Shown here in pieces: positions 25,537 through 43,159 of a DNA stretch of 64,000 bases; the first letter of the stretch is position 1; each line of letters starts with the position of its first letter. A program made the translations under genes and the position numbers. Below the pieces are notes generated by a model. It saw only the letters and a program-made list of their open reading frames with translations. It was not told the DNA's origin and did not search any database. The stretch spans positions 1 to 64,000 of the forward strand of contig CATINC010000007.1 in NCBI GenBank assembly GCA_949524905.1, read 5' to 3'. The DNA comes from Opitutia bacterium UBA7350 (GTDB lineage Bacteria > Verrucomicrobiota > Verrucomicrobiia > Opitutales > Coraliomargaritaceae).

Positions 25537-26403
25537 TCAGCGTTGCAACTGCAGTTCATAAATATTTCCATCGCGATCAATCAACTCGACCGCATCTTCG
25601 GTAACCCCCGCTAGGCCAATGGCAGGCACCCGAGAAACTAAATCCCCTTGGCGATAAATATCCATCGGGTTAACGCCTCCTAATATAACTGCCGAGGAAA
25701 ATTCGCGGCGAAGCGGTTGCCGCTCCAGAATTTCGGATTTAACAATATCCCCTTCGCGATATACTTCCGGAAATACGTCACCATAACCTAATGGCTTCGC
25801 TTCCACTTCTCTTTTCACGGGCGAAGTTGCCTCTAAGGATAGTGCCTTGACCACATCTTCCACCGTTTGGTATTTGCCATTTTCATTCAACTGACCTTGA
25901 TCCGGCATAGCAATTTTACCCAAGGTCAAAGCCTGCCCGTCCTTCGTTTTTACGTCATCGCCCTCACGCTTGCGGATGACGCCAAATCGTACAAAAAACC
26001 CGGTCCGGTCGAGACCCATGTTTTCTGCAATATAACTGGTCAACTCTTCCTTTTCAATTTCCACCTCTCCAGTTTCCGCATCTACCTTAATTGCCAATTG
26101 AACCGAGGGAAGGGTATCGTCCTCAAGTTGGTGATCAGCCACAAATAATTCACGCTTCATGCTGGCGAACTGCTGCCAATTATTCGGCAACCAACGTTCT
26201 TTAGTAAAAGCCTTTGCGATACGACTGGCCTCTATCTCAAGTACAGGCGACGACTTACTCTCGGTGAGTACGAATATTTCCTGCTTCTCAAAATAACCCT
26301 TGATATCGATCCGATCAAATGTGCCAAGACGGTACAGAAGAAAAACTAGAACCAGTAAAGATGCCGGAATAACAAACCTAGGATTGTTTAGAAGTTGTCG
26401 CAC
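25537..26403 (-). CDS. Single-pass inner-membrane protein of the secretion/pilus operon (GspC/PilP-like?)
   Basis: 288 aa from a GTG whose first base overlaps the preceding TAG stop. A short cytoplasmic tail and a TM helix at about 10-28 are followed by a periplasmic region ending in a small beta domain (VPAIGLAGVTEDAVELIDRD) that resembles HR/PilP folds contacting a secretin. I do not recognise the family from sequence; its position after GspL- and GspM-like genes is that expected for a GspC- or PilP-type linker. This is one of the few starts with a GGAGG nearby, although that sequence also lies in the previous coding region. Confidence 0.7.
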   Translation of the reverse strand: MRQLLNNPRFVIPASLLVLVFLLYRLGTFDRIDIKGYFEKQEIFVLTESKSSPVLEIEASRIAKAFTKERWLPNNWQQFASMKRELFVADHQLEDDTLPSVQLAIKVDAETGEVEIEKEELTSYIAENMGLDRTGFFVRFGVIRKREGDDVKTKDGQALTLGKIAMPDQGQLNENGKYQTVEDVVKALSLEATSPVKREVEAKPLGYGDVFPEVYREGDIVKSEILERQPLRREFSSAVILGGVNPMDIYRQGDLVSRVPAIGLAGVTEDAVELIDRDGNIYELQLQR

Positions 26404-27008
26404 TACTCCTCCACCTCACTTTCTTCTGCCTTTTGGATCAGATAAATTACATCCATTTCAGTGCGATAACCTCTGGAGTCACGTTCAATGTAGATTCGAG
26501 AAAAATCTTTGGTCGGCGACTTGCGCCAAAGATAAGTACATGCCTGTAGTAAAGTATTTGCGGGCAAAAAAGCAGTGCCATCATTTAAAGTGGTGCCCTG
26601 TGATCGTCCTTCATAGGTAACTACAATGGAGCCCAACCCCAAGGTATCATCTGGCATTTCCTCTTTTTTAATACTCGCAGATTCAATGATCCAACCACTT
26701 GCGCTAAAAGCTGTATTCGTTATGCCAACGAGGGTTTTTTCGCTCGTCTCTAATTCAGAAAGAAATTCATTACTGAAAATTTGTAAGCGTTTTTGCAAGT
26801 CGCCCTGACGCATTCCCTCAAGCTCCTGCGCCAGTCGCTGTCGCTCTTGCTTGAGGGCTATACGTTCGGCTAGTAAAGCCTCGTAACGCGCCTCGATGGG
26901 TCGATAACCCGTGCCCAGATAAACAATCGCCACCGAAACCACGAAGAGAATAAAAATGACCGGGTATGAAGCCAGCAAGGTATAGAAAGTGTAAAGTAAT
27001 TTTCTCAT
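26403..27008 (-). CDS. GspM/PilO-like inner-membrane protein
   Basis: 201 aa. The TM helix at about 13-33 is followed by a coiled coil rich in Glu/Arg/Leu (about 40-75) and a small alpha-beta periplasmic domain. This size and layout is that of GspM and PilO proteins, which form inner-membrane platform dimers with GspL/PilN. Sequence alone is too diverged for a firm call, so the assignment rests on layout and on the GspL-like gene just upstream and the GspC-like gene just downstream. Confidence 0.65.
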   Translation of the reverse strand: MRKLLYTFYTLLASYPVIFILFVVSVAIVYLGTGYRPIEARYEALLAERIALKQERQRLAQELEGMRQGDLQKRLQIFSNEFLSELETSEKTLVGITNTAFSASGWIIESASIKKEEMPDDTLGLGSIVVTYEGRSQGTTLNDGTAFLPANTLLQACTYLWRKSPTKDFSRIYIERDSRGYRTEMDVIYLIQKAEESEVEE

Positions 27009-27017
27009 GTGACCATA

Positions 27018-28364
27018 TTACTTTTCAAATGGAAGTAGGTTAAACGACAGCGTGAAACTACGCAACGACCCCCGGCGCTCAAAACGCGACTCCCGATTAC
27101 GTTCACGCACAAATGCCAACTGCCAATCAGTGTAGCGCCAACCACGTTTTTCTAGGCTTTCCTCAAAACTTTCCAATGTTTCCACTAAATCAACATCTGC
27201 CGATAAAGGCCGCCCTCGCATTTCTACTTTAATGATCGGTCCTTCTACATCGAGGGTGCAGTCAAGCATGTCTAATTCCACCACACTCGGCAAACTATGT
27301 GATATACCTCCCACCGCCACCGCTAATGGCATGGGCACCACGTCCTCACTAGACATTCCTATCCGCTCACGACTAAAGTCAATCACATGCAACAATGCGC
27401 GGTTATTAACAATGTCATTTTCAATTTTCTTCGTTACCAACGATTCACTTTGTATTTCCGTCTGCATCGCTTCCGTGCGTAACTGCACCTCGCGCTTGCG
27501 CTCTACTTTTGGTAACATGAATAAGAAGCTGAGCCCCAAAAAGAGAATACTGGCGGCAAATGCTCGGTGGCGAATCGCACGCCTCCGTTGACGATTCCGC
27601 TGCTTTGGTGCGATCAAATTTAATTTCTGCAAAGGCCCAGTCTGTAGTAGACGTCCAACCAAACTTGCATCTTTCTCAGCATCTGCCTCAAGTTCTATCC
27701 CTTTCAATTTAAGGTCTGGCGTCTCCCCAAATTCCTGTTCAGTAAAAAGTGCCAATCGTTTTGATGCCGCCTCCAGTACAAGCGCATCCACATCTGCACG
27801 AGCGACCCGATTCACAAAGAGAAAACGGCCCTGCGCATCGTAAGCTAATAAGTAACCTGAAATATTTATGGCACGATAAATCACTTGCGCCTGCCCACTT
27901 TCATTAGGCTCGGCCTCTAGCAAAGCCAAGGCGTGCGGCAAACTGTAGATCCCTTCCAGCACAATACCCGATTTTAATGCCCAACGCGCGATGGGTTCAC
28001 TAAGCCCTTCCGGCAAACTCGCTACAAAATGAAAGCTGTGTGTCCCCTTTTCCGTGAGCCCCATTGAATGAGTCACCCAACTGCGCGGCACCTGACCATA
28101 AATTTTTTCTTTTCGCTGCACCATTAACTGACGTTGCATCTTTTTCGCCAGTGGCGGAAGCCGCTCAACATGATGATCCAGCGATGCATGATCCAGATAA
28201 ATTACAAGATGCGAAATTCTAAGCTTGCCCTCATGGGCTTTAAGAAAAGCCAACAATCCCTCGGCATCTTCAATCGCAGCCTCCGCCAACAATTTTGCCG
28301 AATGACGTTTTTTTCGCCAGGCCGTCAGCTTTCCATGATCCCAGATGATGTGTAGGCGTGCCAT
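27018..28364 (-). CDS. GspL-like (PilM/PilN-type) platform protein
   Basis: 448 aa. An N-terminal cytoplasmic part of about 260 residues with an actin-like/GspL pattern is followed by a basic patch (RNRQRRRAIRHR), a TM helix at about 268-285 and a periplasmic coiled coil plus ferredoxin-like domain. GspL and PilM/N proteins recruit the secretion ATPase and bind GspM/PilO. Nucleotide motifs are not obvious. It lies between the pseudopilin and the GspM-like gene, consistent with the order E-F-pseudopilin-L-M-C. Confidence 0.65.
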   Translation of the reverse strand: MARLHIIWDHGKLTAWRKKRHSAKLLAEAAIEDAEGLLAFLKAHEGKLRISHLVIYLDHASLDHHVERLPPLAKKMQRQLMVQRKEKIYGQVPRSWVTHSMGLTEKGTHSFHFVASLPEGLSEPIARWALKSGIVLEGIYSLPHALALLEAEPNESGQAQVIYRAINISGYLLAYDAQGRFLFVNRVARADVDALVLEAASKRLALFTEQEFGETPDLKLKGIELEADAEKDASLVGRLLQTGPLQKLNLIAPKQRNRQRRRAIRHRAFAASILFLGLSFLFMLPKVERKREVQLRTEAMQTEIQSESLVTKKIENDIVNNRALLHVIDFSRERIGMSSEDVVPMPLAVAVGGISHSLPSVVELDMLDCTLDVEGPIIKVEMRGRPLSADVDLVETLESFEESLEKRGWRYTDWQLAFVRERNRESRFERRGSLRSFTLSFNLLPFEK

Positions 28365-28382
28365 TCCAATAAAAAATATGGA

Positions 28383-29666
28383 TTAATATGACCAACGCTC
28401 CCCATCAAAGCGAAGACTTTCGAGATTTTCATTGATCTCAAATGTGCCTACTTCTGCACTGCTCCAGGGTTCGCCTAAAAGCAACTGTTGGCCAAGTAAA
28501 AAATAGCGGGTCTGGCTAGATAATTCCGAATTTCCCCAACCACCTAAATCAATAGGGCTATTGGGGCTATCGGGATCAATTAAGGCCATGGGCGCTCGAT
28601 CCGTTGCAAGCAATGTGATTTCTGTGCTTTCAAAAACTCCATTCTTGTAGCCTGCTACTGTAATTGAAATTTCTTCGCCATCATCTTGAATTTTGCCTCG
28701 GTCGGAGAGCACTAGAGCGGTCAACACCGTAGTGGTCGTTGCATTATTGCCGTTGTTATTACCATTACCGTTGCTCATTGATTGTTCCGTAAAAATGATG
28801 GATGCCTCGGCATCAATCATATTACTCGTTGAAACAAAAGCGGTGTTGTTATCCCATTCATCTATTAAGTCAGTGCCATTACGACTAGCATACGCACCCG
28901 CCCCACTGTTTGGGTAATTATTTTTATTCTCATCAAAGATGGTGCCATTTGGTGCCTTAACTGAGCGGAAATTCTCAATGCGTACCTCGCATAGCCATTC
29001 TCTTAGATCCACCCGTTGGACGACCAATTCCGCAGCACGATTTTCCCATGCTGTTTCCGAGAGCCCATAAAGATTCCATGAACCCGTGAGCGGAGCGCCA
29101 TCACTGCCCACCGCCCAGTCATCCCAGATATTGTTAAATTGTGTGCTGCTGAGCGTGTCTGGAATGGGTAAATCAGGATTGGTCGTTGATAACAGAAGCA
29201 AACGCATCTCAAGGGGATCTTTGAAATCAATGAGCCATTCCCTTCCATCGTCGGTGAGATCCGCAAATGACAAGCCAGAAAAACTGCTATCGGCAAAATA
29301 TAACTTTCGGACATTGCCTTCATTATTGCGCGAACCCAAGGGATAACGTGCCTCGATGGCACTACCAGATCCATGCCGCCCTGCGATATTCCACCAGTAA
29401 TCTTCATTCCCACCCTCTGCGGCGCGGGAGACGCTGTTATTATAAATAGGAAACATCTGTTCGCGAAGAATGCCGCGCTTCAAAGCATCTGCCAGTGGCG
29501 GCAAGGCTGCTTTTTCATCTACCAGTCGACGGTTCTCGATAACGTTCACAGTCAAAGGAATGGCGGCTGCCAAAAGAATGGAAGTAACCGCCATCACTCC
29601 AATCAGTTCCAGCAAACTAAAACCAGCACGGCGCCCTGAAGCGCCTCGATTAAGAATTTTTTTCAT
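28383..29666 (-). CDS. Large pseudopilin with type IV prepilin signal
   Basis: 427 aa. The prepilin signal has a basic leader and cleavage site at Gly15^Phe (AGFSLLELIGVMAV), with Glu at position +5 of the mature protein followed by the hydrophobic helix. The remaining 380 residues are far longer than GspG/H (140-200 aa) and include a low-complexity Asn/Gly segment (SNGNGNNNGNN, about 290-305). It may be a minor pilin of the GspK kind (large, capping the tip), but GspK-specific motifs are not clear. Located directly after the gspF-like gene. Confidence 0.85.
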   Translation of the reverse strand: MKKILNRGASGRRAGFSLLELIGVMAVTSILLAAAIPLTVNVIENRRLVDEKAALPPLADALKRGILREQMFPIYNNSVSRAAEGGNEDYWWNIAGRHGSGSAIEARYPLGSRNNEGNVRKLYFADSSFSGLSFADLTDDGREWLIDFKDPLEMRLLLLSTTNPDLPIPDTLSSTQFNNIWDDWAVGSDGAPLTGSWNLYGLSETAWENRAAELVVQRVDLREWLCEVRIENFRSVKAPNGTIFDENKNNYPNSGAGAYASRNGTDLIDEWDNNTAFVSTSNMIDAEASIIFTEQSMSNGNGNNNGNNATTTTVLTALVLSDRGKIQDDGEEISITVAGYKNGVFESTEITLLATDRAPMALIDPDSPNSPIDLGGWGNSELSSQTRYFLLGQQLLLGEPWSSAEVGTFEINENLESLRFDGERWSY

Positions 29667-29668
29667 GA

Positions 29669-30880
29669 TTAATTTAAGGCTCCGGGGCTGAGCATTTGCA
29701 CCAGAGGTAGGAAGACTGCCGCCGCGACAAAACCGGCCATTAATACAGTCGTTACAATCAGGGTTGGCTCTAATACCCCAAAGAAAGCCTTGATCTTGCG
29801 CGGCACAAGATCATCGTAGTAATCCACCACCGCTTCTAGGGATTCGTCCAGCGAACCACTGCGTTCCCCAACGCCCACCATTGTCCGAACCAATGCCGGA
29901 AAAGTGTTATCCTTTGCCATAGTGCTGCTCATCGTTGAACCATTTGCGACCGCAGCTTCAATTTTTACTACACTTGCTTCCACCACTCGGTTACCGACAA
30001 CATCCCTCGCCATGCGCAAGGAATCAGTGATCACAATACCGGCCTTCTGCATCAAAATCAAACTGCGCAGAAATCGTGCAATAGCGAGCGTGCGAATCAC
30101 GCCTCCTAGATAAGGAATACTGATCAACATACGGTCACGCCAATAAGCAGCGGTGGTAGAGATACGAAATAGAATCCTTAAGCCGATCGGCACAAAAAAT
30201 CCTACCACTAGTATTAACATCCAATACGCCACCACAAAATCACTCGCGGTGATCATGATTCGCGTCACCAATGGCAACGGAATCTCCAGTTCATACAAAA
30301 GTTCCACGACCGTCGGAAAAATAAACCGTAGGGCAATAAAGATAAAAGCCAACAAGGCTGCCACCACAAACATGGGATAGAGCATCGCCTGTTTAAAGGT
30401 CTTCCAATTTTGATCCAGCCATTCCATATAGCCACGCAGTGAAATTAAATTTTCTGCCAAGGTACCACTTCGCTCTGCCACGCGCACAACATTCTGCACA
30501 TAACTTGGAAATATCCGTGGAAATTGTGTTAAGCCTTCGCTCATAGGAGTGCCTTGCTCAACGACCTCAGCGAGACGTTGCCGTACCGTTCCCTGCACCC
30601 CACCGGCGTCCTCACCTTCCCGCGCTCGCAAAGCATCCACAATGGACACCCCCGCCCGCAGTTGCATTCCAAGTTGAAAAAGCAAATTTGCCAGGTCGGC
30701 AGTCTTCATCTTTAATCGCCGATAGCGACCCCCGTTAGAATTATCCTTTAAAGTACACTCTACCAATTCAAGATTCTCGATTTCGAGTAGTTCTCGCAAA
30801 CGCCCTTGAGTCTCGGCCTCTCGAACCCCTTGCCGCACGCGACCTTCCGGGCTAACCGCCTTGTATCTAAATTCAGGCAT
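29669..30880 (-). CDS. GspF/PilC inner-membrane platform protein
   Basis: 403 aa. Two repeats of the GspF domain are visible, each with LxxGxxxxxAL-type motifs (LGMQLRAGVSIVDALRARE and MQKAGIVITDSLRMARD) and three or four TM helices. The start matches the family pattern MPEFRYKA. It anchors the assembly ATPase and pseudopilins at the inner membrane. The start overlaps the gspE stop by 8 bases, so translation is coupled. Confidence 0.94.
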   Translation of the reverse strand: MPEFRYKAVSPEGRVRQGVREAETQGRLRELLEIENLELVECTLKDNSNGGRYRRLKMKTADLANLLFQLGMQLRAGVSIVDALRAREGEDAGGVQGTVRQRLAEVVEQGTPMSEGLTQFPRIFPSYVQNVVRVAERSGTLAENLISLRGYMEWLDQNWKTFKQAMLYPMFVVAALLAFIFIALRFIFPTVVELLYELEIPLPLVTRIMITASDFVVAYWMLILVVGFFVPIGLRILFRISTTAAYWRDRMLISIPYLGGVIRTLAIARFLRSLILMQKAGIVITDSLRMARDVVGNRVVEASVVKIEAAVANGSTMSSTMAKDNTFPALVRTMVGVGERSGSLDESLEAVVDYYDDLVPRKIKAFFGVLEPTLIVTTVLMAGFVAAAVFLPLVQMLSPGALN

Positions 30881-32651
30881 CTCCTGGGCACGCCTCCTCG
30901 CTGTCTAGTTGTACCACTCGGGCGATTTCTTCAACACTCGTCAGTCCCGCAAGCGCTTTTGCTAAACCATCATCTCGCATGAAAGGCACGCCCGCTTCAC
31001 GCAATTGATCCTGCATCTTACTAACAGAGTGGCCGTGCTCAATCCAGTTGCGCACAGCTTTATCCACTTCAACTATTTCAGCAATACTCACACGACCACT
31101 GTAACCTTTCTGAGCGCAGGCTTCACAACCTCCAGGGCGATACAAAGTGACTGCTTCTTTAACTAGTCTAGGGCTGTCTGCCCCCACCAAAGCATTCCAT
31201 TCCTTAGCGCTCATCTCAAAACTTTCGCGGCACACCGGGCATAGGCGACGCGCCAGACGCTGTGCACTCAATCCAAGTAAACTACCCGCTAAAAGATAAG
31301 GCGGCACACCCAGATCGGTTAAACGCGGCACCGCACTCAAAGCATCATTTGTATGCAAGGTGGAAAAAACTAGGTGACCGGTCAAAGCGGCTCGCACCAT
31401 TAATTCCGCAGTAACTTGGTCCCGCGTTTCTCCCACTAAAATGACATCCGGATCCTGTCGCAAAAGCGTGCGTAATCCCGCCGAAAAACTTAATCCAATT
31501 TCATCCTTAACCTGAGTCTGACGAATGAGTGGCATCCGGTATTCGATGGGATCCTCAAGGGTAAACACGCTTCGCGCCTCTGCATCGATCATGCCCAGTA
31601 AGGTGTAAAGCGTGGTCGTTTTACCGCTACCCGTTGGACCTGTTATTAAAAAGACGCCGTAAGGTTGATTTAAGACCTCTCCTAATTGTGCCTGTTGATC
31701 TTCTGAAAAACCTAAGGTGGGCAAGTCGAGCTTGAGGCGCGATTGGTCTAAAAGACGCATCACAATGCTCTCTCCATTACTACAGGGAAGACTTGAAACC
31801 CGGATATCCACCTCTTCTGAACCAATGGCAAAATGAATCCGCCCATCCTGCGGGAGCCGATCTTCCGCGGTATCCATTCCAGCTAAAATTTTAAAACGCG
31901 CCGTCAGAGCACTACGAATGGCACTGGGCAGGAGGAGTCCCTCTTCTAAAACACCGTCAACCCGCAAGCGGATCCTAAAAAAGCGCTCCTCCGCATGTAA
32001 GTGTACGTCACTGGCCTCTCGTGTTGCCGCATGCAGCAAAATTTGCTCCGCCAAACGAATCATCGGAGCGTCGTCTGAGGCTTGCTCCTCCAATTCAGCC
32101 TCATCCATTTGAATGATCGCAGAGACTGCATCGTAAAGATCCTGATGTGCACGGTAATTACGATTGATCGCCAAGCGGATGTCGGTTTCCGAGGCCGGTA
32201 AGGCTTCCACTGTTTGCCCAGCAGCTCCCTCAAGGCGTTTCAGGGTTGGCAAATCAAAAGGATTAGCGCAGGCAACCCAAAGGGCTCCTTTTCGCTCGGC
32301 TATCGGGATGGAGATGGTGTTTTGGCACAGCTCTAAAGGGAGGCGTTCGCGCAACTCATCACTTAAGACCAATCGCCTTAAGCTGAGATGAGACTGGTCT
32401 CCAGGTCCGGTAGCGATAAAATCTCGAGCAGTGCTCAACTGCCCTCGCACCGACCGATAAAGCGCTAACTGATCACTCGTTACCAGACCCAGACGTTGAA
32501 CCACCTCGGTGAAGCTCAAGCCCAACCGAGAGGCTTCGCGAGCCGCCAAGTCAGCCTGAGACTGAGTAAGGGTCCCTTCAGAAACAAGCCAGGCCTCCAT
32601 TTTGATGGAGGCCTGACCGTTTTCGTTCGACTGAATGTCTATATCGCTCAA
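30873..32651 (-). CDS. GspE/PilB-type assembly ATPase
   Basis: 592 aa from TTG; an internal ATG at 32600 (MEAWLVSE) is another possible start. N-terminal MshEN/T2SSE-N domains are followed by the core: Walker A GPTGSGKTTT (about 334-343), Asp box, Walker B, and a tetracysteine zinc site CPVC (about 472) and CEAC (about 505). It powers extension of a pilus or pseudopilus. The first codons include a perfect 11-base inverted repeat (32590-32615). It follows the pilin gene by 43 bases and overlaps gspF. Confidence 0.95.
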   Translation of the reverse strand: MSDIDIQSNENGQASIKMEAWLVSEGTLTQSQADLAAREASRLGLSFTEVVQRLGLVTSDQLALYRSVRGQLSTARDFIATGPGDQSHLSLRRLVLSDELRERLPLELCQNTISIPIAERKGALWVACANPFDLPTLKRLEGAAGQTVEALPASETDIRLAINRNYRAHQDLYDAVSAIIQMDEAELEEQASDDAPMIRLAEQILLHAATREASDVHLHAEERFFRIRLRVDGVLEEGLLLPSAIRSALTARFKILAGMDTAEDRLPQDGRIHFAIGSEEVDIRVSSLPCSNGESIVMRLLDQSRLKLDLPTLGFSEDQQAQLGEVLNQPYGVFLITGPTGSGKTTTLYTLLGMIDAEARSVFTLEDPIEYRMPLIRQTQVKDEIGLSFSAGLRTLLRQDPDVILVGETRDQVTAELMVRAALTGHLVFSTLHTNDALSAVPRLTDLGVPPYLLAGSLLGLSAQRLARRLCPVCRESFEMSAKEWNALVGADSPRLVKEAVTLYRPGGCEACAQKGYSGRVSIAEIVEVDKAVRNWIEHGHSVSKMQDQLREAGVPFMRDDGLAKALAGLTSVEEIARVVQLDSEEACPGDA

Positions 32652-32694
32652 TACGAATTAAGTTAAAATTCAGATAACCAAGCCAGGTAGAGGT

Positions 32695-33408
32695 CTATTG
32701 ATGAGCGACATAAAGATAGGCATCATGCGTGCCGTCAGATGCTTCAGCCGAGAACCAGCAGTTCGCTCCAGAGATATTTCCAGGGACACTGCCACCAATT
32801 GTGGACTCAGCAATGATAGAATCTTCACCTTGTACTGTTACTGGGAAAGGACCATTGACCTTAGTACCCAGTGCCGCTGCTTCCTGTTTAGTAAGCTTAG
32901 GAATGTAGTAATAAGCAACTCTAGTTGCATTACCGGCAGACTTGAAAAAGAGGTTATTGGCTGCGTATGTCGCGCTACCACCACCGGCGTCACAGGCACC
33001 CGATCCTGAAGTTGCGACACAACCCACCGCAAAGTCAAGTGCACCTTCTTCAGCTTCGCCGATTGGAGTTTTGATTTCCTCCATCAATAATTCTTGGTAG
33101 TAAAGAATGTGACCCAGGGTGTCTGCGTTACCAGATTCATTGGCAGGTGCAGTTCCGTCCGCGCCGGGGCGATTGTTGCTGTAGGTTGTTAGATCGCCAT
33201 CAAAAGGAATGCGGTCATATCGCTGATAGTAATTTAAAACCGCAGTCTTGGCAGCATTGACTGAAGAAATGGCTGAAGTCACTTTGGCATCGCGAATAGA
33301 TTCGATAACACGCGGTGCGACAACACTGGCTAGAATACCAATGATTGCGAGAACGCCAATCATTTCAATCAGCGTGAATCCTTTACGGGAGTTATGTGTA
33401 TTTTTCAT
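32695..33408 (-). CDS. Type IV pilin/GspG-like major pilin
   Basis: 237 aa. Leader MKNTHNSRKG^FTLIEMIGVLAIIGI with Glu5 of the mature protein and a hydrophobic N-terminal helix. The globular domain is larger than GspG and contains CVATSGSGAC plus a third Cys near the C-terminus (NCWF), so a disulfide loop is possible. As the first gene before gspE it is the likely major subunit. The upstream gap is AT-rich and carries a TATACT-like -10, but no confident promoter. Confidence 0.92.
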   Translation of the reverse strand: MKNTHNSRKGFTLIEMIGVLAIIGILASVVAPRVIESIRDAKVTSAISSVNAAKTAVLNYYQRYDRIPFDGDLTTYSNNRPGADGTAPANESGNADTLGHILYYQELLMEEIKTPIGEAEEGALDFAVGCVATSGSGACDAGGGSATYAANNLFFKSAGNATRVAYYYIPKLTKQEAAALGTKVNGPFPVTVQGEDSIIAESTIGGSVPGNISGANCWFSAEASDGTHDAYLYVAHQ

Positions 33409-35951: not shown

Positions 35952-36281
35952 TTAATCGGCATTGGGGAATTCTCGATGCAATTTTCCTTCAAGCTCAGTG
36001 ACACGGGCAGCAAGTACGTCGTATTGATCCTTTGTGACGACGTTGGCGCTGTGGAGGAGCTCATTAAAGAGATGGCTGGCTTGTACCTTTGCCTTTTCAG
36101 TTTCCGCCTCACCCGTTGCAACAATCTTTTCAGACATCGCCGCCGCTTCTTCTTTGGTAAGGTTTCCTTTTTCTACCAGTTCGTGCAATGACTCCAGTAC
36201 TTTGTCCTTCGTCACGACGGCGAGACCCATACCCGCCAACATTGATTTTTTCATCAGTTCAATCATGATGTCGGGCAACAT
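35952..36281 (-). CDS. Phasin-like coiled-coil protein
   Basis: 109 aa from the ATG of MLPDIMIELMKKS. A longer frame to 36401 is rejected because it would begin within the terminator of the upstream operon. The sequence is mostly helix: VTKDKVLESLHELVEKGNLT, a Glu/Ala/Lys-rich middle, and a terminal leucine-zipper-like stretch (YDVLAARVTELEGKL). This matches the phasin/PhaI-like group (COG3937), whose members bind polyhydroxyalkanoate granules or regulate neighbours. No PHA synthase is seen in the window. It lies just upstream of the UbiB gene. Confidence 0.75.
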   Translation of the reverse strand: MLPDIMIELMKKSMLAGMGLAVVTKDKVLESLHELVEKGNLTKEEAAAMSEKIVATGEAETEKAKVQASHLFNELLHSANVVTKDQYDVLAARVTELEGKLHREFPNAD

Positions 36282-36352
36282 AAAGCTACATTCATATAAA
36301 AACAAGACTGGAGGTTGAGCACCGCAAGGGAGACAAACACGGGTAACTTCCA

Positions 36353-36383
36353 CAAAAAAAGGCTCGCCGTATAGGCGAGCCTT
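36353..36383 (-). terminator. Rho-independent terminator of the secretin operon
   Basis: On the minus strand AAGGCTCGCC-TATAC-GGCGAGCCTT is followed by a run of T. It starts about 20 bases after the secretin stop, closing the operon from 43023 to 36403. Confidence 0.92.
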
Positions 36384-36402
36384 AGAAAAGAGACGCTCCA
36401 AA

Positions 36403-38760
36403 TTACTGATCGTTGATCGAGCGATTTGTCGTTCCCGACGGAGTCATAATGGTCGGATTTTGGAAGAGCGCATTTGCCTTAGCATTATCGTAGCTTTGAC
36501 GAGATAGCGAACCACCAGGGCTCACGAGGTTAGCCGTTACAAAGATGAGAAGATTGCGTTTCTGACGGGTCTCGCCCTCTGAACGGAATAGACGTCCAAC
36601 CCCAGGGATGCTGCCCAGCACGGGCACTCGGTCGTTGATGTATTTCACTTCATCACGGGTCAAACCACCCATCACAAGCGTAGCACCATCAAAGACGGTG
36701 ACATCGGTGACAATCTCGCGCTTAGAAAAGATAGGCTGGAAGAAACCTGCTGGCACGGTCACGGTTGTACCGCCGCTGATCGCCACACTTGGACCACCAT
36801 ATTCGACGAAGCCTTCAAATTCAGTTACCTTGGGATTCAGCTCGAGACTGATGGTGTCATCGTTTTGCACATTGGGGGTAACCGAAAGTTCCACGCCCAC
36901 AGTTTGGGTTGTGAAATCCTCTGGGGTGCCCGCAGTGATTGATATTGACGCACTACCGCCGCCATTGTTGCCGCCGCCACTGGTTGAGGCAGTCGATTCA
37001 ATATCGCCGTAGCTTTCAGGGTAGCGGAATTCTTGACCCACTTTAATTTCAGCACGTTTGCCTGAGAGCACCGTGACTTTGGGTGCACTCATCAGATCAC
37101 TCCCCGTCTTGCGGGAGAGCGCGCGTATGGCTAAATCGATATCGTAGTTGTCAGCTTCAAGCAAGCCGCTGCTGACATACGTGTCGCTGGTAAAATCCGC
37201 AGCATAATCGACGGTGTTCCTGAGTTGCGGTGGAATCAATGGGATCGGCTGCTCACCGGTAATGGTTATCTGACTCTCGGTATTGGAAATATTAAAGGCA
37301 TCGTTCAGTGAACGGAGGCTGAAGTCCGCTACAGTAGCTCCATTGTTAGTAATGGTCCAATCAAAGCCGAGTTCTTCGAGATCACTTTGAGCGACTTCAA
37401 GGAATTTAGCTTCAATTTCAACCTGCTTGACTTCGCTGTAGTTGCGGAGGATGGCCCGCATGCGGTCTAAATTTTGACGGGTCTGGGTCACGATAAGTTG
37501 TTCGCCATCAAATGCGAGGCTGGCACCAGGAATTTCAAAGTTGACGCCGGCGCGCTGGAAAAAGGACTCCAAGAGCTCCGTCTTTTCTTCTGCAGCCGAG
37601 CCGCCGCTGCTGGCGGCGCTGACGGCAAAAGGATCATCGTCGAGAGCGGAAGGCCCGCTGTCACCCACTCCGGTGAGACGGATAACCGTACCTTGGGAGA
37701 TCGGAAAGAATTCAGTAACGGTGCTTTGACCGCCTTCAGGACCAAAACTCGGAGCAATGGTCACGGCATCTGAACCGACTTCGTAGGTAAAGTTGACTTG
37801 TTGCGTTACAAATTGAAGGATGCGGTCAAGGCTAAGATTCCGGAGGCTGATATTAACACTGGGATTAGTATTGTTGGGATTAAAGAGAACCACGATGTTA
37901 ACCCCCTCGCCTTCGGGGTCATACTGCAGGGAAAGTTCAGACAAGGTCTCGATCACCCGGGTTAGCTCTAAGCCAGAGAAATTAACCTGGGGGATGACGA
38001 TGCTGTTAAGCTTGCGCTGCGTGCTGCTATCGCCGCTATCGGAGCCATTATTAGAAGCGGAAATATCAAAGACTTTGGGTCGTTCCCATTGCTGATCGAC
38101 TTCGGTGAGCATTTGCTCCCGGGTTTTGTAAAGGTTAGCCTTTTGAATCGCGCCTAGGATCTGTGCGATGCGGGTAGAGTAAAGCTTCGCTTCTGAGTTA
38201 TTCGGCGCACGGGCTTCGACTTCCTTAAAAGTGCTGGCTGCTCCATCGTAATCACCATTTAAAAACTGAGCGCGTCCGCGCAAGATGAGATCTTCAACAA
38301 TTTCACTATCGGCAGCAAACTTGGGACTAATTTTAGCTAGGGCTAAATCGTCTGTCTCGGCCGGCTCTTCTTGAGCGATGACGTCGGGTGTACTCGCAGG
38401 TGCTTCCGAAACCGGAGGCACTTCAACTGGAGCAGTGAAATCCGTCACATTTGAAGGAGCACTCGTTGGCATGGCAAAGCTGGAAGCAGCACTTTGGCCT
38501 TCCATGGCATCGTTGACGGAGGCCAGAATGCGCTGGGCATTCGTATCATTGGGCACCAAACGAACAAGCTCCTCGGCTTTTTCTTTTGCGAGTGTTAGGT
38601 TTCCACTGTCACGTGCGCGTAGAGCCTCAGCCATGATTCGCACTTTTTCTGCGGTACTCTGAGCTTCCACAACCACCGGTGAGGTAATCAGGGTGCTAGT
38701 CAGCAAAACGGTCATAAGAACCGAGAAGAGGCGTTGTTTTACGAGGAGGTATATTTTCAT
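36403..38760 (-). CDS. Secretin (PilQ/GspD, Amuc_1098-like)
   Basis: 785 aa. A signal peptide (ending near Ala33) is followed by a TPR-like helical region, an STN/N0 domain (about 245-345, SLQYDPEGEGVNIVVLF), a secretin N-domain (VEIEAKFLEVAQSDLEELGF) and the C-terminal secretin pore with VTVPAGFFQPIFSKREI and VPVLGSIPGVGRLFRSEG. It would form the outer-membrane channel for pilus or pseudopilus. It ends a five-gene operon and is followed by a strong terminator. The N-terminal TPR-like region is shared with Amuc_1098, as I recall. Confidence 0.94.
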   Translation of the reverse strand: MKIYLLVKQRLFSVLMTVLLTSTLITSPVVVEAQSTAEKVRIMAEALRARDSGNLTLAKEKAEELVRLVPNDTNAQRILASVNDAMEGQSAASSFAMPTSAPSNVTDFTAPVEVPPVSEAPASTPDVIAQEEPAETDDLALAKISPKFAADSEIVEDLILRGRAQFLNGDYDGAASTFKEVEARAPNNSEAKLYSTRIAQILGAIQKANLYKTREQMLTEVDQQWERPKVFDISASNNGSDSGDSSTQRKLNSIVIPQVNFSGLELTRVIETLSELSLQYDPEGEGVNIVVLFNPNNTNPSVNISLRNLSLDRILQFVTQQVNFTYEVGSDAVTIAPSFGPEGGQSTVTEFFPISQGTVIRLTGVGDSGPSALDDDPFAVSAASSGGSAAEEKTELLESFFQRAGVNFEIPGASLAFDGEQLIVTQTRQNLDRMRAILRNYSEVKQVEIEAKFLEVAQSDLEELGFDWTITNNGATVADFSLRSLNDAFNISNTESQITITGEQPIPLIPPQLRNTVDYAADFTSDTYVSSGLLEADNYDIDLAIRALSRKTGSDLMSAPKVTVLSGKRAEIKVGQEFRYPESYGDIESTASTSGGGNNGGGSASISITAGTPEDFTTQTVGVELSVTPNVQNDDTISLELNPKVTEFEGFVEYGGPSVAISGGTTVTVPAGFFQPIFSKREIVTDVTVFDGATLVMGGLTRDEVKYINDRVPVLGSIPGVGRLFRSEGETRQKRNLLIFVTANLVSPGGSLSRQSYDNAKANALFQNPTIMTPSGTTNRSINDQ

Positions 38761-38812
38761 AGTAAGGATTAGCGTTTAAGATTAGGACGTAAGCAATTAT
38801 GTTTTTTAATTT

Positions 38813-39712
38813 TTAAAACATACTGTCGAACGGAGTCGTGTTTAAATCCGTGGCAGTAGGCTTTGTATCAGTTTCATTGGGAGCACTTGCATCATTTGAT
38901 GCTTCAACCGCAAGTAATTGAGTTTCGGCTTCGCGCTCGCCATCGACAAAGGTTTTTTCAACCGTAAGGGTAAGTGCCTCAAAATCAATATCCGTGAGGC
39001 GATAAGCTCTTTGGTCTCTTTCAAAGGTAGCTCCAATGGCATTGGGTTTCCATTCCTGAGATGGATCTTTGGAAGACCGAAGCAAAATTTCAACGCCCTC
39101 GGTATAATAGGGTTTCCCATGGATGAGTTCGATTGTTTCCCCATTGCGATAATCCATGATAGTTGCCATGGCACGCTTAGTGATACTACCGTCATCACCA
39201 AAAATACGGTCGATAGTAAAATCAATGACTTCAATGTCATAGCCCTCTGGAGCATCGCCTACTCGCACCCGCAGGTTTTCACCGCTCTCTTCATCCACCA
39301 TGAGTAAAAGGCTTTTAGTGGCGTCTTTGAAATCCTCTTCAATATAGCCCATCAGTTGAATGCGATACAAGGCCTGCTCCAACTTAGCAAGATAGAGCCC
39401 AAACGGCTCTGAAGGAGGACGTGGTTTCCAGCCTTCGCTCACCCACTCACCTGTTTCGAGGTTGATGTAAATTTTTGGCGGTGTGAAAACATCGTATATC
39501 CACCCGGTGGATTGCTCAGCAGCTTCAGGCCAGGCGGCATCCGCAATATTTAAGCTAGGTATCGGCAAGGGGGTAAAGGCGGCGCCTTTTGCTTTCGCTG
39601 CCTCGATTGTTTCGTCGGGTTCTGGACCCTCGCTGAAAAGGTAGAAGGCCGCACTCGCCACGAGCGCAAGCACGCCCAGCAAAAGAAGGATTTTATCGTA
39701 AGAGCGTTTCAT
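38813..39712 (-). CDS. PilP-like inner-membrane protein (Amuc_1099 position)
   Basis: 299 aa. TM helix at about 8-26, then a Pro-rich linker and what looks like two HR/PilP-like beta modules: one around YRIQLMGYIEEDF and NLRVRVGDAPEGYDIEVIDF, and another around YRLTDIDFEALTLTVEKTF. PilP-type modules contact the secretin and link it to the inner-membrane platform. The C-terminal 35 residues are disordered. Not recognised by name; assignment rests on this pattern and on its position between the PilO-like and secretin genes. Confidence 0.7.
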   Translation of the reverse strand: MKRSYDKILLLLGVLALVASAAFYLFSEGPEPDETIEAAKAKGAAFTPLPIPSLNIADAAWPEAAEQSTGWIYDVFTPPKIYINLETGEWVSEGWKPRPPSEPFGLYLAKLEQALYRIQLMGYIEEDFKDATKSLLLMVDEESGENLRVRVGDAPEGYDIEVIDFTIDRIFGDDGSITKRAMATIMDYRNGETIELIHGKPYYTEGVEILLRSSKDPSQEWKPNAIGATFERDQRAYRLTDIDFEALTLTVEKTFVDGEREAETQLLAVEASNDASAPNETDTKPTATDLNTTPFDSMF

Positions 39713-39717
39713 GGCGT

Positions 39718-40716
39718 TTAGGCGTCTTCTCCTTCATCGTTGATAGTTTCAGCAGGCAGCACGACTTCAATAAATTCCAGCAAGAGTGTGAAAGTCGAGA
39801 GGTTATCTACGATAACGGGTTTCTGTGCTTCTGCTTCAGTGTTTTCCTCTGTGGATTCATCCATCGCATATGGCCCAAATATAGATTCAAAATTATTTGA
39901 ATTATCTGCAGGCTCGACGCTTACAATGTCACTTTCTGCAGGGCGATCAACCTTCACACCGCGTACAACAATAGGGAGATCAAACTTTGCCAACTCGTTT
40001 AAAAAAAGACGCAGGGATTCAGTGTAACCTTTAAAACTCACGCGGAATGCCAAAGTATTAATCGCATTGGGTACTCGCGCAGAAATCGCTGGGTCGATCT
40101 TAAATGTTCCAGGAATTTGAAAAGCCGTTCCCTTTTGTTCGAGCCCCTCGCGCTCAATGAGCTCAATCGATTGCGGTTCTGCCACGATGAGTTTGTCGAC
40201 CAATACTGCTAGAATTTGGCGCTGCTTATCGAGCAAGGAAACCATTTGAGGATCGACGGGTATCGTGGCGGCATCTGCGTAGGCATCAAAACCAAAGGCA
40301 AAGCCTTCACCCGTCTCAATGGGTGCGGCCTCCGTTTCACCACTGAGGCCATTGATGGTTTCATGCGTCGCTAATTTAGAACCGGCTTCACTGATGAATT
40401 GCTGAATGGATGCCATCACCTCTACCCCGTCATCGGAAAGTTCTAGATTTGCGCCGCGCTCTAGATCGGTACGAATGCGGTCTAGTTGCGCGATTAACTT
40501 GGCAAGGTTCTCAGCAGAAGCTGCCACATTCTTCTCAGACGGCGCGGGAGCGCCCTTGTATGAGGCCTCGTAACTGCGTTTCGCGCTTTCCAATTTTTTA
40601 TCGGAATTTGCGGCCGCACCAGCAGCCATAAAAACGAGGGAAACTCCGCCTAAAAAGACCAGCAGGCAGAACAGAATCAATGCGGCAAAAACTGGATTTT
40701 TCTTCAAATTATCCAT
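39718..40716 (-). CDS. PilO-like protein, resembles Amuc_1100
   Basis: 332 aa. TM helix at about 10-33, a coiled coil (about 38-95), then a two-lobed periplasmic region including LAFRVSFKGYTESLRLFLNE and VDNLSTFTLLLEFIEV, which resemble the second-half beta-alpha-beta pattern of Akkermansia Amuc_1100 (a PilO-fold protein known as a TLR2 agonist). Length is close (Amuc_1100 is 317 aa as I recall). It would bind the PilN part of the preceding gene product. Its start is 5 bases after the PilM-PilN stop. An alignment is needed to confirm homology. Confidence 0.72.
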   Translation of the reverse strand: MDNLKKNPVFAALILFCLLVFLGGVSLVFMAAGAAANSDKKLESAKRSYEASYKGAPAPSEKNVAASAENLAKLIAQLDRIRTDLERGANLELSDDGVEVMASIQQFISEAGSKLATHETINGLSGETEAAPIETGEGFAFGFDAYADAATIPVDPQMVSLLDKQRQILAVLVDKLIVAEPQSIELIEREGLEQKGTAFQIPGTFKIDPAISARVPNAINTLAFRVSFKGYTESLRLFLNELAKFDLPIVVRGVKVDRPAESDIVSVEPADNSNNFESIFGPYAMDESTEENTEAEAQKPVIVDNLSTFTLLLEFIEVVLPAETINDEGEDA

Positions 40717-40721
40717 GAGGC

Positions 40722-42386
40722 TTACAGGGGCTTGGCTGGATCGATGACCAGTTTAATTTCAAAGGGTAAGACGTTGAGTCCGTCGTTGAGCATAGACCAG
40801 CGAATCCGTGGCGGCTTGGAGTCGACAATAAAAGCGGAGGTTTTCAAACTGGCGATCAGGCTTCGGATGCGGCGAGTGAGGACATCACGATCAATTCCCT
40901 GCGATCCGCCTGCTGTTTCGCGCACCAGCATCTGCCCCTCAAGAGCGACCTCATAACTGGAAGTGCCGTCTTCTTTTGCACGTAAAACCTTGAGCCCATC
41001 AAGCCAGACATCCTCGGCGTTTGATAAACTTTCCTGCATTTCAGCAAAGAATTGAATCCAATTACTCTTAGACTGCACCAAGCCTTCAACTTGCTCAATA
41101 GAGGCCTTGACGGATTCTGCTGCTTCAATGTTAACCGCAATGGTCGCTTTGTCTTTTTGAAAAGGCGCTGCTGCTTCACGATAATTTGCAATCTGGGCAT
41201 CTCCAGCCTCGGCTTTATCTTCAAAAACTTTCCAGACAGGCCAGGGCGCCAGTGCTAAACATATTGCAGCTGCCATAAGCAATGGTTTCTGCTTGGCAAA
41301 GCGCATCGCTTCTTGAATTTCATCCGGCAGCAGATTAACCCCAGCGCCATCGCTTAGCAATGGACGACATGCTTCGCCAATGATTTGAGGCACCAATACT
41401 CGCAAACTTTCGGGCTCCTCAGTTATACCAGCATCGAACGTCACGTTTTCAAATGGATCTAGTAATTCTACCGGCACTTTTTGACTGGTTTGCAAAAATT
41501 CCGCGAGCCCTCGCACTTGCGATCCGCGACCGCTTAGGAGAATTCTTGACGGTGCGGGAGCGTTATTTTGGCGGCGATAGTTGACGATTGAGCGTGTAAC
41601 TTCCTGAGAAATTCGGCGCATGAAAGCGTCCGCGCTATCTGTAAGAGCTTTTGCTCCATTGCTATCCTCTAATTCCTCGTTTTTATTATTGTAGAATTGT
41701 AGCTTGATGCTTTCTGCTTGCTCCAAATTTTTGCCCAAACTGTCAGCAATACTTTGACTCAAGACCTGTCCGCCTAAAGAGAGGTTGCGCACAAAGAAAC
41801 CGTTCGCATTTCGGAATAATAAATTAGTAGTGCGCGCTCCAATATTAATCAACAAGTCATCGGTGGCAGCCTCGGGATCCGCAAAGGCTAATAAATTATA
41901 TTCCAAGATACTAGCGGCAGTAAGGCCGTCTGCGGCGAGGCCCGCTGCTTGAACCATCGCACAAAATGCTTCAACGGTGGCTACTTTACAGGCTATAAAT
42001 AATACTTCGATTTCAATCCCATCGTCGCCTAAAATTTGGCTATCCCAGACAACTTCGTGGAGCGGATAAGGGATACTTTGCTGGGCTTCAAATGCGATGA
42101 CCTGAGCCCGCTTTTCTTCTTCCACATGAGGAATCTTGATGGTCTTGGTCAGGACTTGATTTCCAGGCAATATAAAAGTTGCACTCCCTTCATAGCCTCC
42201 ATTTTTGACGAGGGTTTTTAGAGCTGCACCCGTTGATCCGATCCAATTCTCATCGACTAGGGCATCGCAATCTAAATACTCTGTGGCGACCTCTTTTAAT
42301 ATAACCCTACCGGAATCGGCGCTTGTTAGAGCCGCCGTTACTCGGCTAGCACCACAGTTAATAATTAAACGGGACAAATTGCTCAT
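40722..42386 (-). CDS. PilM-PilN fusion, actin-like platform protein (Amuc_1101-like)
   Basis: 554 aa. Residues 1-350 form a PilM/FtsA-like actin fold: SRLIINCGASRV (phosphate-1), LLINIGARTTNLLF (phosphate-2) and ILLSGRGSQVRGLAEFL (adenosine loop). A TM helix at about 371-388 is followed by a periplasmic coiled coil and a PilN-like domain. In other bacteria PilM and PilN are separate; here one chain would join cytoplasmic ATP binding to the periplasmic platform. Amuc_1101 of Akkermansia, annotated FtsA-like, holds the same operon place. Not to be mistaken for cell-division FtsA. Confidence 0.88.
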   Translation of the reverse strand: MSNLSRLIINCGASRVTAALTSADSGRVILKEVATEYLDCDALVDENWIGSTGAALKTLVKNGGYEGSATFILPGNQVLTKTIKIPHVEEEKRAQVIAFEAQQSIPYPLHEVVWDSQILGDDGIEIEVLFIACKVATVEAFCAMVQAAGLAADGLTAASILEYNLLAFADPEAATDDLLINIGARTTNLLFRNANGFFVRNLSLGGQVLSQSIADSLGKNLEQAESIKLQFYNNKNEELEDSNGAKALTDSADAFMRRISQEVTRSIVNYRRQNNAPAPSRILLSGRGSQVRGLAEFLQTSQKVPVELLDPFENVTFDAGITEEPESLRVLVPQIIGEACRPLLSDGAGVNLLPDEIQEAMRFAKQKPLLMAAAICLALAPWPVWKVFEDKAEAGDAQIANYREAAAPFQKDKATIAVNIEAAESVKASIEQVEGLVQSKSNWIQFFAEMQESLSNAEDVWLDGLKVLRAKEDGTSSYEVALEGQMLVRETAGGSQGIDRDVLTRRIRSLIASLKTSAFIVDSKPPRIRWSMLNDGLNVLPFEIKLVIDPAKPL

Positions 42387-42438
42387 GAACTAAATAGATA
42401 GGGATCGTGTAATAATGGCAGGGTGGTCTCGCTCGGCA

Positions 42439-43023
42439 TCAAGATGTCGGTTCGCGGCGAAGGTACAAAGGCTCTTCGCGGAAATCATTATGAATTAGAG
42501 GCGGAGCTAAATAGGAAGGAATCAGTATATTTTTGTTAGCCTCAACTTGAGCATTGGCCTTGGACTGCATATTTTTTAACATCTCCAAATCGCGGATGTT
42601 CCCCATTGCAGGACTTTTTTGTGGCTCTTGGGCTTCACCCGCAATGGAAACTTCAATATAATAAAATTCAGGTTCCCCTCGGATCTCGTCACGTTCCATG
42701 ATCAAGCCGGGCATATAAAAATAAACGGTGTTTTTATCACGCGCTTCCATGATCATAATTTCAACCTGAGCGGTATAAAATCGGTATTCCCCAGAGCCAA
42801 TGCGATAAGCCAACAAGGGCTTAACCATAATATTTTCTAAATAATCAGCATTGACGGCATCTGGAGCAATATTGCCATTGCAAGTGAGTTCAATCTCTAC
42901 CTGCACCCAGCGATCGCCTAAAGTGTTGAACTTAACCCGATCTACTGTGATGGCGTCCTGAGCGCACAGTGGACGAATCAGCGTTAAGAAAAAAATTGTA
43001 AGGGGTAATAGCCTGTCGAGCAT
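42439..43023 (-). CDS. Secreted pilus-operon protein (Amuc_1102 position)
   Basis: 194 aa. A signal peptide ends at PLCAQ (about 21). The mature part is beta-rich (ITVDRVKFNTLGDRWVQVEI, RIGSGEYRFYTAQVEIMI, VYFYMPGLI) like a single Ig- or OB-like domain of about 110 residues, then a helical tail with MLKNMQSKANAQVEANKN. Unnamed; the position as first gene of the operon matches Amuc_1102, reported to be an Ig-like pilus-associated protein. A function in pilus assembly is inferred from context. Confidence 0.68.
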   Translation of the reverse strand: MLDRLLPLTIFFLTLIRPLCAQDAITVDRVKFNTLGDRWVQVEIELTCNGNIAPDAVNADYLENIMVKPLLAYRIGSGEYRFYTAQVEIMIMEARDKNTVYFYMPGLIMERDEIRGEPEFYYIEVSIAGEAQEPQKSPAMGNIRDLEMLKNMQSKANAQVEANKNILIPSYLAPPLIHNDFREEPLYLRREPTS

Positions 43024-43077: not shown

Positions 43078-43106
43078 TTGTAAATTATAGTGGATCGTAG
43101 TATTTT
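43078..43106 (+). promoter_or_regulatory. Possible promoter of the Nudix gene
   Basis: TTGTAA, a 17-base spacer, TATTTT. It overlaps the promoter on the other strand, so the two divergent genes may interfere with each other. Predicted by eye. Confidence 0.35.
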
Positions 43107-43113
43107 AAAGCAA
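43084..43113 (-). promoter_or_regulatory. Likely promoter of the secretin operon
   Basis: On the minus strand TTGCTT, 18 bases, then a perfect TATAAT (43084-43089). Transcription would start near 43077, giving about a 54-base leader before the first operon gene. Confidence 0.5.
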
Positions 43114-43159
43114 GCTATTAAACGCTTGCCTAGCGGTTTTTATAGGAAAGCGTGTTTAT

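Follow-up and report, generated by a model that had tools for sequence, protein, structure and literature searches.

An Amuc_1100-type operon in a marine member of the Opitutales as a likely part of a type IV pilus inherited through the Verrucomicrobiota

Introduction

The window analyzed here is a stretch of 64,000 nucleotides (contig CATINC010000007.1, assembly GCA_949524905.1) from Opitutia bacterium UBA7350. On its minus strand (43023-36403) it contains five open reading frames that match the Akkermansia muciniphila genes Amuc_1102-1101-1100-1099-1098 in order and strand (hereafter 1102 to 1098). We consider it likely that this operon encodes the alignment subcomplex and the outer-membrane channel of a type IV pilus that has been inherited through the Verrucomicrobiota. 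In Akkermansia, Amuc_1100 is a host-interacting TLR2 agonist that is studied as a probiotic effector, and its gene lies in a secretin/PilM operon. The window comes from a marine bacterium that is a distant relative of Akkermansia: the host genome (1.67 Mb, 99.97% complete, 17 contigs) has as its closest named relatives marine Opitutales of the Coraliomargarita/Puniceicoccaceae kind, the best being UBA7350 with 79% identity in the 554-amino-acid (aa) protein of the operon.

Earlier work has described the cluster in Akkermansia, along with its cell-envelope abundance (PMC5332112), and has assigned the secretin as PilQ, with homologues in other Verrucomicrobia (PMC4960237). According to Wilkie et al. 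(2026, ISME J; PMC13174399), MUL2 (1099-1102) is syntenic in aquatic Akkermansiaceae, and MUL2A and MUL2B are encoded by 266 of 352 non-muciniphila genomes. The same text reports the synteny often in Verrucomicrobiales, less in Chthoniobacterales and not in Methylacidiphilales, predicts a pilus-biogenesis complex and proposes a role in pilus biogenesis for the Akkermansiaceae locus (PMC13174399). Since this synteny has already been reported, the general idea is not new. What is added here is the extension to Opitutales and other classes, the linkage to pilus motors via rho and pilC, a test of the PilM-PilN fusion, a tree that indicates vertical descent, and limits on the labels PilO and PilP.

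Homology to Amuc_1100

The 332-aa product of the third gene had been called Amuc_1100-like in the first-pass annotation of the window, and profile searches bear this out. The NCBIfam model NF038287 (Amuc_1100_fam) matches residues 1-286 with an E-value of 1.5e-18 and 67.3 bits, which is below the curated cut-off of 180 bits. To avoid circularity, a profile of the 332-aa family was built from Opitutales alone, containing no Akkermansia or Verrucomicrobiales sequences. This profile still finds the solved structures of Amuc_1100 (PDB 6lad/6kny; E 1.1e-9), the next match being unrelated (0.23), while a mixed profile of all 31 diverse 1100 sequences reaches E 1.6e-61. Two residues, P59 and R189, are invariant across this 31-sequence alignment, Akkermansia included. 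In pairwise comparison, the window and Akkermansia proteins share about 16% identity, and single-sequence PDB searches with the 332-aa and 194-aa proteins returned nothing useful, so that profiles were required. Judged by these profiles, the 332-aa protein is a genuine, if remote, homologue of Amuc_1100, though outside the curated equivalog family. Significant profile similarity, whose absence would have counted against the first-pass annotation, is thus present. The gene is single-copy in the host genome, and its product is predicted to have one N-terminal membrane anchor (12-30) followed by a coiled region and an alpha/beta periplasmic part. A lone N-terminal membrane segment is likewise found in 144 of the 163 members of the 1100 family. 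In two loci (L067 and L068), the Amuc_1100 match lies within longer open frames (440-465 aa by the first start, up to 937 aa in G104 and G090), which possibly reflect extra domains, fusions, or merely late start codons.

The Other Proteins of the Operon

The 554-aa protein (1101) matches PilM_2 (PF11104) above the Pfam cut-off (E 7.1e-28) and NF045709 (Amuc_1101_fam) with E 1.9e-83 and 281 bits, against an equivalog cut-off of 650. The PilN model PF05137 is silent on the window protein itself; in several genomes, PilN matches 1101 at its C-terminal end, once above the cut-off, in the member from G110. In hhalign comparisons, 1101 aligned end to end with GspL of the type II secretion system (T2SS), which carries both PilM_2 and PilN (probability 96.5, E 7.4e-10). 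Because of this alignment with a protein that bears both domains, 1101 is a PilM-PilN fusion, as had been proposed at first, with a predicted cytoplasmic actin-like part, one membrane segment (369-387) and a PilN-like periplasmic part. The fifth gene product (785 aa) is a secretin by PF00263 (E 1.3e-37, above the Pfam cut-off), again in line with the first annotation, and matches NF042912 (Amuc_1098_fam) with E 6.4e-112 and 375 bits, the equivalog cut-off being 750. By their best family matches, the 785-, 554-, and 332-aa proteins are thus closest to Amuc_1098, 1101, and 1100, as homologues and not as members of the curated equivalogs.

For the first gene (194 aa), described initially as an Ig-like secreted protein, the outcome is mixed. 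Amuc_1102 reportedly has an Ig-like, archaeal-pilin-like fold. A phylum-wide 1102 profile finds the structure of Amuc_1102 (PDB 7dsz) as its sole match with E 6.1e-23, and the term Ig-like is used for the window protein because of that fold together with this match; however, a profile from Opitutales alone reaches only 0.19 against the same structure. The window protein has a hydrophobic N-terminus that ends in LCAQ.

PilO and PilP are expected to carry a single N-terminal membrane segment, and for 1100 the slot in the operon and the topology agree with the PilO-like label of the first-pass annotation. The sequence similarity is a different matter, as no significant Pfam match supports it. Pfam scans of 65 members of the 1100 family listed 25 families without PilO, T2SSM_b being found in five members (best 0.025), and PF04350 (PilO) itself reached 0.015 in one member. 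First hhalign runs of 1100 against GspM were insignificant; with a larger alignment, 1100 against a GspM that matches PilO gave P 0.001 (probability 21.5), above 60 shuffled controls, and the conserved 1100 stretch GxxxxLRxFLNxLAxF..VVRSVEV aligned with the equivalent stretch of that GspM. Since 1101 scores much like 1100 against GspM, via its membrane and coiled segments, the PilO likeness of 1100 is kept as suggestive only.

The 299-aa protein (1099) is predicted to have a single N-terminal membrane anchor (8-26), and 151 of the 157 members of its family have a lone N-terminal segment as well. It has no Pfam, NCBIfam, or PDB match and no family outside the operon, and Pfam gave nothing above noise over 56 family members. 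The PilP model PF04351 was silent at 1099 in 60 genomes, a test of low power given that it was also silent in 14 of 14 control genomes. The earlier designation of this protein as PilP-like thus finds no evidence at the sequence level, and PilP has been dropped as its identity.

Distribution and Descent

Of 383 Verrucomicrobiota genomes, 306 have a match to Amuc_1100_fam, spread over 161 of 191 genera; some of the weakest matches are near noise (Bacillus subtilis matches too), and 43 of the 383 genomes pass the curated cut-off. The loci of relatives were searched with the 1101 alignment, the alignment of 31 diverse 1100 proteins being too divergent; no relative of the 554-aa protein was found on viral contigs. 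The order 1102-1101-1100-1099-1098 was never broken in 90 loci and in 80 Opitutales loci, the loci read covering Opitutales and about 50 other families; this count sets aside loci that were short or cut by a contig end, loci where 1102 was missed, and a few additional frames that match secretin. As no rearrangement of the five genes was met in any locus read, their arrangement is not due to chance. In long Akkermansia loci, rho comes after this set of five. In the 1101 tree, which mirrors taxonomy, Opitutales form one clade (support 100/100) and Akkermansiaceae fall within their own class, and the 1100 tree agrees, with the Akkermansia-like genus as one clade (Shimodaira-Hasegawa-like approximate likelihood ratio test 99); family and genus (f10 and g40) were assigned here as Akkermansiaceae and Akkermansia by near-identity to Amuc_1100. 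Both trees follow taxonomy and thus show vertical descent of the operon through the phylum, Akkermansia being a derived twig within it. Horizontal transfer was considered and is rejected by the same trees. The initial statement that the component is widespread in the phylum therefore holds: the operon is phylum-wide, tracks taxonomy and keeps its order.

These data also bear on the possibility that gut Akkermansia acquired Amuc_1100, or reshaped it, to interact with the host, its likeness to the environmental protein being superficial only. The low identity between the window protein and Amuc_1100 would fit such a view, as would the divergence within genus g40. However, profile homology is significant with no Akkermansia sequence in the profile, the two invariant residues and the operon position are identical, and the trees, in which Akkermansia is one clade, already disfavor an origin by acquisition in the gut, so that we regard this explanation as very unlikely.

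Several individual loci deserve mention. Four loci of genus g40, probably Akkermansia (L091, L208, L209, and L210, from G001, G048, G066, and G189), encode 1100 proteins only 19-24% identical to the A. muciniphila type, within the same operon and in one clade with that type, and therefore the gene evolves fast there; a further genome of this genus (G292) has no match even to the wider 1100 profile. Two Amuc_1098-type secretin genes per locus were seen in several families of the same class (L048, L049, L050, and L052), possibly by tandem duplication. Public contigs of metagenome-assembled genomes titled Akkermansia muciniphila or Polynucleobacter (L162, L164, L167, and L171) carry Opitutales-type operons, with NUDIX upstream in all but L171, and their titles look mislabeled.

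Linkage to Pilus Motors and Type II Secretion

The host genome contains PilB, PilT, PilC, and one prepilin peptidase, with the motor genes arranged on another contig as rho-pilB-pilT-pilB2-pilC. In Opitutales rho adjoins pilB-pilT-pilC, whereas elsewhere, Akkermansia included, it lies downstream of 1098. One genome (G279) has the arrangement pilC-1102-1101-1100-1099-1098-rho, and we propose a single ancestral array that came apart in Opitutales. The only other secretin of the host genome, a GspD-type protein on C5, sits with GspK and a GspL-like gene and by this context is the T2SS channel. As the T2SS therefore has a channel to itself, only the window secretin is left to serve the pilus, and the window operon remains as the candidate PilM-to-PilQ set for the PilB and PilT motors. 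PilN-PilO Pfam matches elsewhere in the phylum were considered as a rival pilus alignment complex; the six loci read are T2SS clusters.

A second secretion or pilus cluster without a secretin lies 3 kb downstream of the operon (25537-33408, minus strand), which raises the question whether the two form a type II-like secretion machine that exports enzymes via the window secretin. On the strand of the operon, the cluster encodes a GspE ATPase, GspF, and two N_methyl proteins (33408-28383), and in one relative (L127) pilin-GspE-GspF are found directly downstream of it. On the other hand, the cluster is followed by genes of its own that occupy GspL/GspM-like positions (28364-25537; the names are without Pfam support), the genome has the separate GspD-type secretin, T2SS clusters across the phylum are complete at separate loci (E-F-G-K-L-M-D), and the lasting neighbor of the operon outside some Opitutales is rho, plus pilC in G279. 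Such a secretion machine is in our view improbable.

It is also unlikely, if somewhat less so, that the operon builds a dedicated apparatus for glycan attachment or uptake, as MUL2 does in Akkermansia, from pilus-derived parts that no longer form a dynamic type IV pilus. MUL2 is reported to be required for mucin transport in Akkermansia (PMC13174399, citing Davey et al., 2023), and the same paper describes fucoidan uptake by marine Akkermansiaceae. Moreover, among the 80 genomes with 1100, three lack a PilT over the cut-off. However, the other 77 have the retraction motor PilT, and a dynamic pilus fits with pilC being linked to the operon and rho to pilB-pilT. Both readings can hold if attachment is itself performed by the pilus.

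The co-occurrence with PilT can be expressed in numbers: PilT exceeds the cut-off in 77 of the 80 genomes that have 1100, compared to 66 of 77 without (P 0.025) and to 38 of 49 genomes without a match to the wider 1100 profile (P 0.002). Same-class genomes that lack both Amuc_1100 and PilT over the cut-off are those of family f11 (2.2-2.5 Mb, e.g., G039, G051, and G262), which probably corresponds to Methylacidiphilaceae, and the 0.9-Mb genomes of f13 (G033 and G054). Methylacidiphilaceae are reported to be without MUL2 by Wilkie et al. (PMC13174399).

A number of points weigh against a pilus role. The PilT co-occurrence supports it weakly, because it is confounded by shared ancestry. Many genomes without a recognizable 1100 keep PilT, so either PilT can occur without the operon or the operon proteins are unrecognizable in those genomes; the motors and the operon are far apart in most genomes. 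PF04350 gives no significant match to 1100, and the silence of the PilP model at 1099 points the same way, within the low power noted above. An inner-membrane anchor is at odds with the usual labeling of Amuc_1100 as an outer-membrane protein. The same conflict arises from immunofluorescence that placed Amuc_1100 at the outside of the cell (PMC5332112).

Comparison With Known Systems

The A. muciniphila cluster (MUL2 plus the PilQ secretin) shares with the window the five genes, their order, and strand; 1100, 1101, 1102, and 1098 are homologous by profile, and the secretin has an N-terminal TPR in both. It differs in that all three NCBIfam equivalog cut-offs are missed by the window proteins, and the window operon is flanked by NUDIX and recF instead of rho, in a marine, free-living host. 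The MUL2 loci of aquatic Akkermansiaceae and Verrucomicrobiales are likewise environmental, with conserved synteny and low sequence identity; the main text names Verrucomicrobiales, Chthoniobacterales, and Methylacidiphilales, but not Opitutales, to which the window belongs (PMC13174399). The canonical type IVa PilMNOPQ system resembles the operon in its PilM, PilN, and secretin modules, in the order M-N-x-x-Q with two single-pass periplasmic proteins between N and Q, and in having PilB, PilT, and PilC elsewhere in the genome. In contrast to it, PilM and PilN are fused in the window, an Ig-like first gene is added, and the PilO and PilP positions are filled by proteins without a significant Pfam match. 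In the T2SS GspL-GspM-GspD of the phylum, GspL is likewise a PilM-PilN fusion and GspM matches PilO, but this system occupies a separate locus with GspE, F, G, K, and its own secretin.

Operon Layout and Neighborhood

All five reading frames of the first-pass annotation were confirmed in place and on the minus strand (Table 1), with intergenic gaps of 52, 5, 5, and 52 nucleotides. The same annotation had given the operon one promoter and one terminator. The terminator is real by folding (z -3.98; 0 of 200 shuffles equally stable), whereas the promoter is a candidate only: a scan for consensus promoters did not list the TTGCTT-17-TATAAT site and found promoter-like sites in no excess. The NUDIX gene upstream is divergent, and between it and the operon lies an inverted repeat GCAAGC...GCTTGC (43108-43130) that overlaps the candidate -35 box and may be a site for a regulator. 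Just past the terminator, a small protein on the minus strand (35952-36401) is phasin-like (NCBIfam phasin-related domain, E 4.2e-6, below the cut-off), and an ABC1/UbiB-like kinase adjoins it.

Table 1. Coordinates of the operon, its putative signals, and the downstream cluster in the window.
Feature	Position	Strand	Basis or remarks
Amuc_1102-position gene, first of the operon, 194 aa	42439..43023	-	Secreted protein (predicted); open reading frame call and profile match
Amuc_1101-position gene, 554 aa	40722..42386	-	PilM-PilN fusion; PF11104, NF045709, GspL alignment
Amuc_1100 homologue, 332 aa	39718..40716	-	NF038287 and Opitutales-only profile; PilO position
Amuc_1099-position gene, 299 aa	38813..39712	-	Operon position and profile continuity with the Akkermansia gene; PilP position
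Amuc_1098-position gene, 785 aa	36403..38760	-	Secretin with N-terminal TPR and STN domains; PF00263, NF042912; putative PilQ role
Intrinsic terminator 3' of the secretin gene	36359..36383	-	10-bp stem and T run
Candidate promoter TTGCTT-17-TATAAT	43084..43112	-	9/12 matches, -35 box only 3/6; read off the sequence
Pilin-like gene	33408-32695	-	N_methyl
GspE-like ATPase	32651-30873	-	T2SSE, E 2.5e-126
GspF-like gene	30880-29669	-	
Second N_methyl protein	29666-28383	-	
Three proteins in GspL/M/C-like positions	28364-25537	-	Without significant Pfam matches

Proposed Machine and Implications

In the machine that we propose, 1101 combines, by profile comparison, PilM and PilN in one chain, a cytoplasmic ring protein of the actin-like type that crosses the membrane with a single helix and has a domain in the periplasm. 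The protein in the PilO slot, 1100, would be the membrane-anchored periplasmic partner of the PilN part; both this partnership and a PilO ancestry are presumed. From its position, 1099 may be a second anchored periplasmic protein that forms the bridge to the secretin 1098, the putative outer-membrane channel of the pilus. The secreted, Ig-fold, archaeal-pilin-like 1102 could serve the pilus machine as an adhesin, a minor pilin, or a channel-associated protein, and extension and retraction would be powered by PilB and PilT from the other contig. On this model, the immune activity of Amuc_1100 in Akkermansia would have arisen as a by-product of this inherited machinery or have been added to it later.

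More tentatively, and with less than even confidence, the Verrucomicrobiota may possess their own lineage of alignment complex, in which PilM and PilN are fused, PilO and PilP are replaced or diverged beyond recognition as the Amuc_1100 and Amuc_1099 families, and an Ig protein resembling archaeal pilins is added. Such a complex would descend vertically from an ancestral pilC-1102-1101-1100-1099-1098-rho array, and TLR2-type activity may be latent in many of the environmental homologues.

Taken together, the data suggest that Amuc_1100 belongs to a pilus machinery inherited throughout the phylum and did not originate in the gut. Because the gene is vertically inherited in free-living lineages, it is a fair inference on function that the host-interacting role is secondary. 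The fast divergence in the Akkermansia-like genus calls for caution against assuming an equivalent Amuc_1100 in all Akkermansia species. If Amuc_1100 is indeed an anchored periplasmic part of a phylum-wide pilus, the route by which it reaches TLR2, be it shedding, lysis, vesicles, or a second location, becomes a key question, and the environmental homologues would be natural controls for which residues matter.

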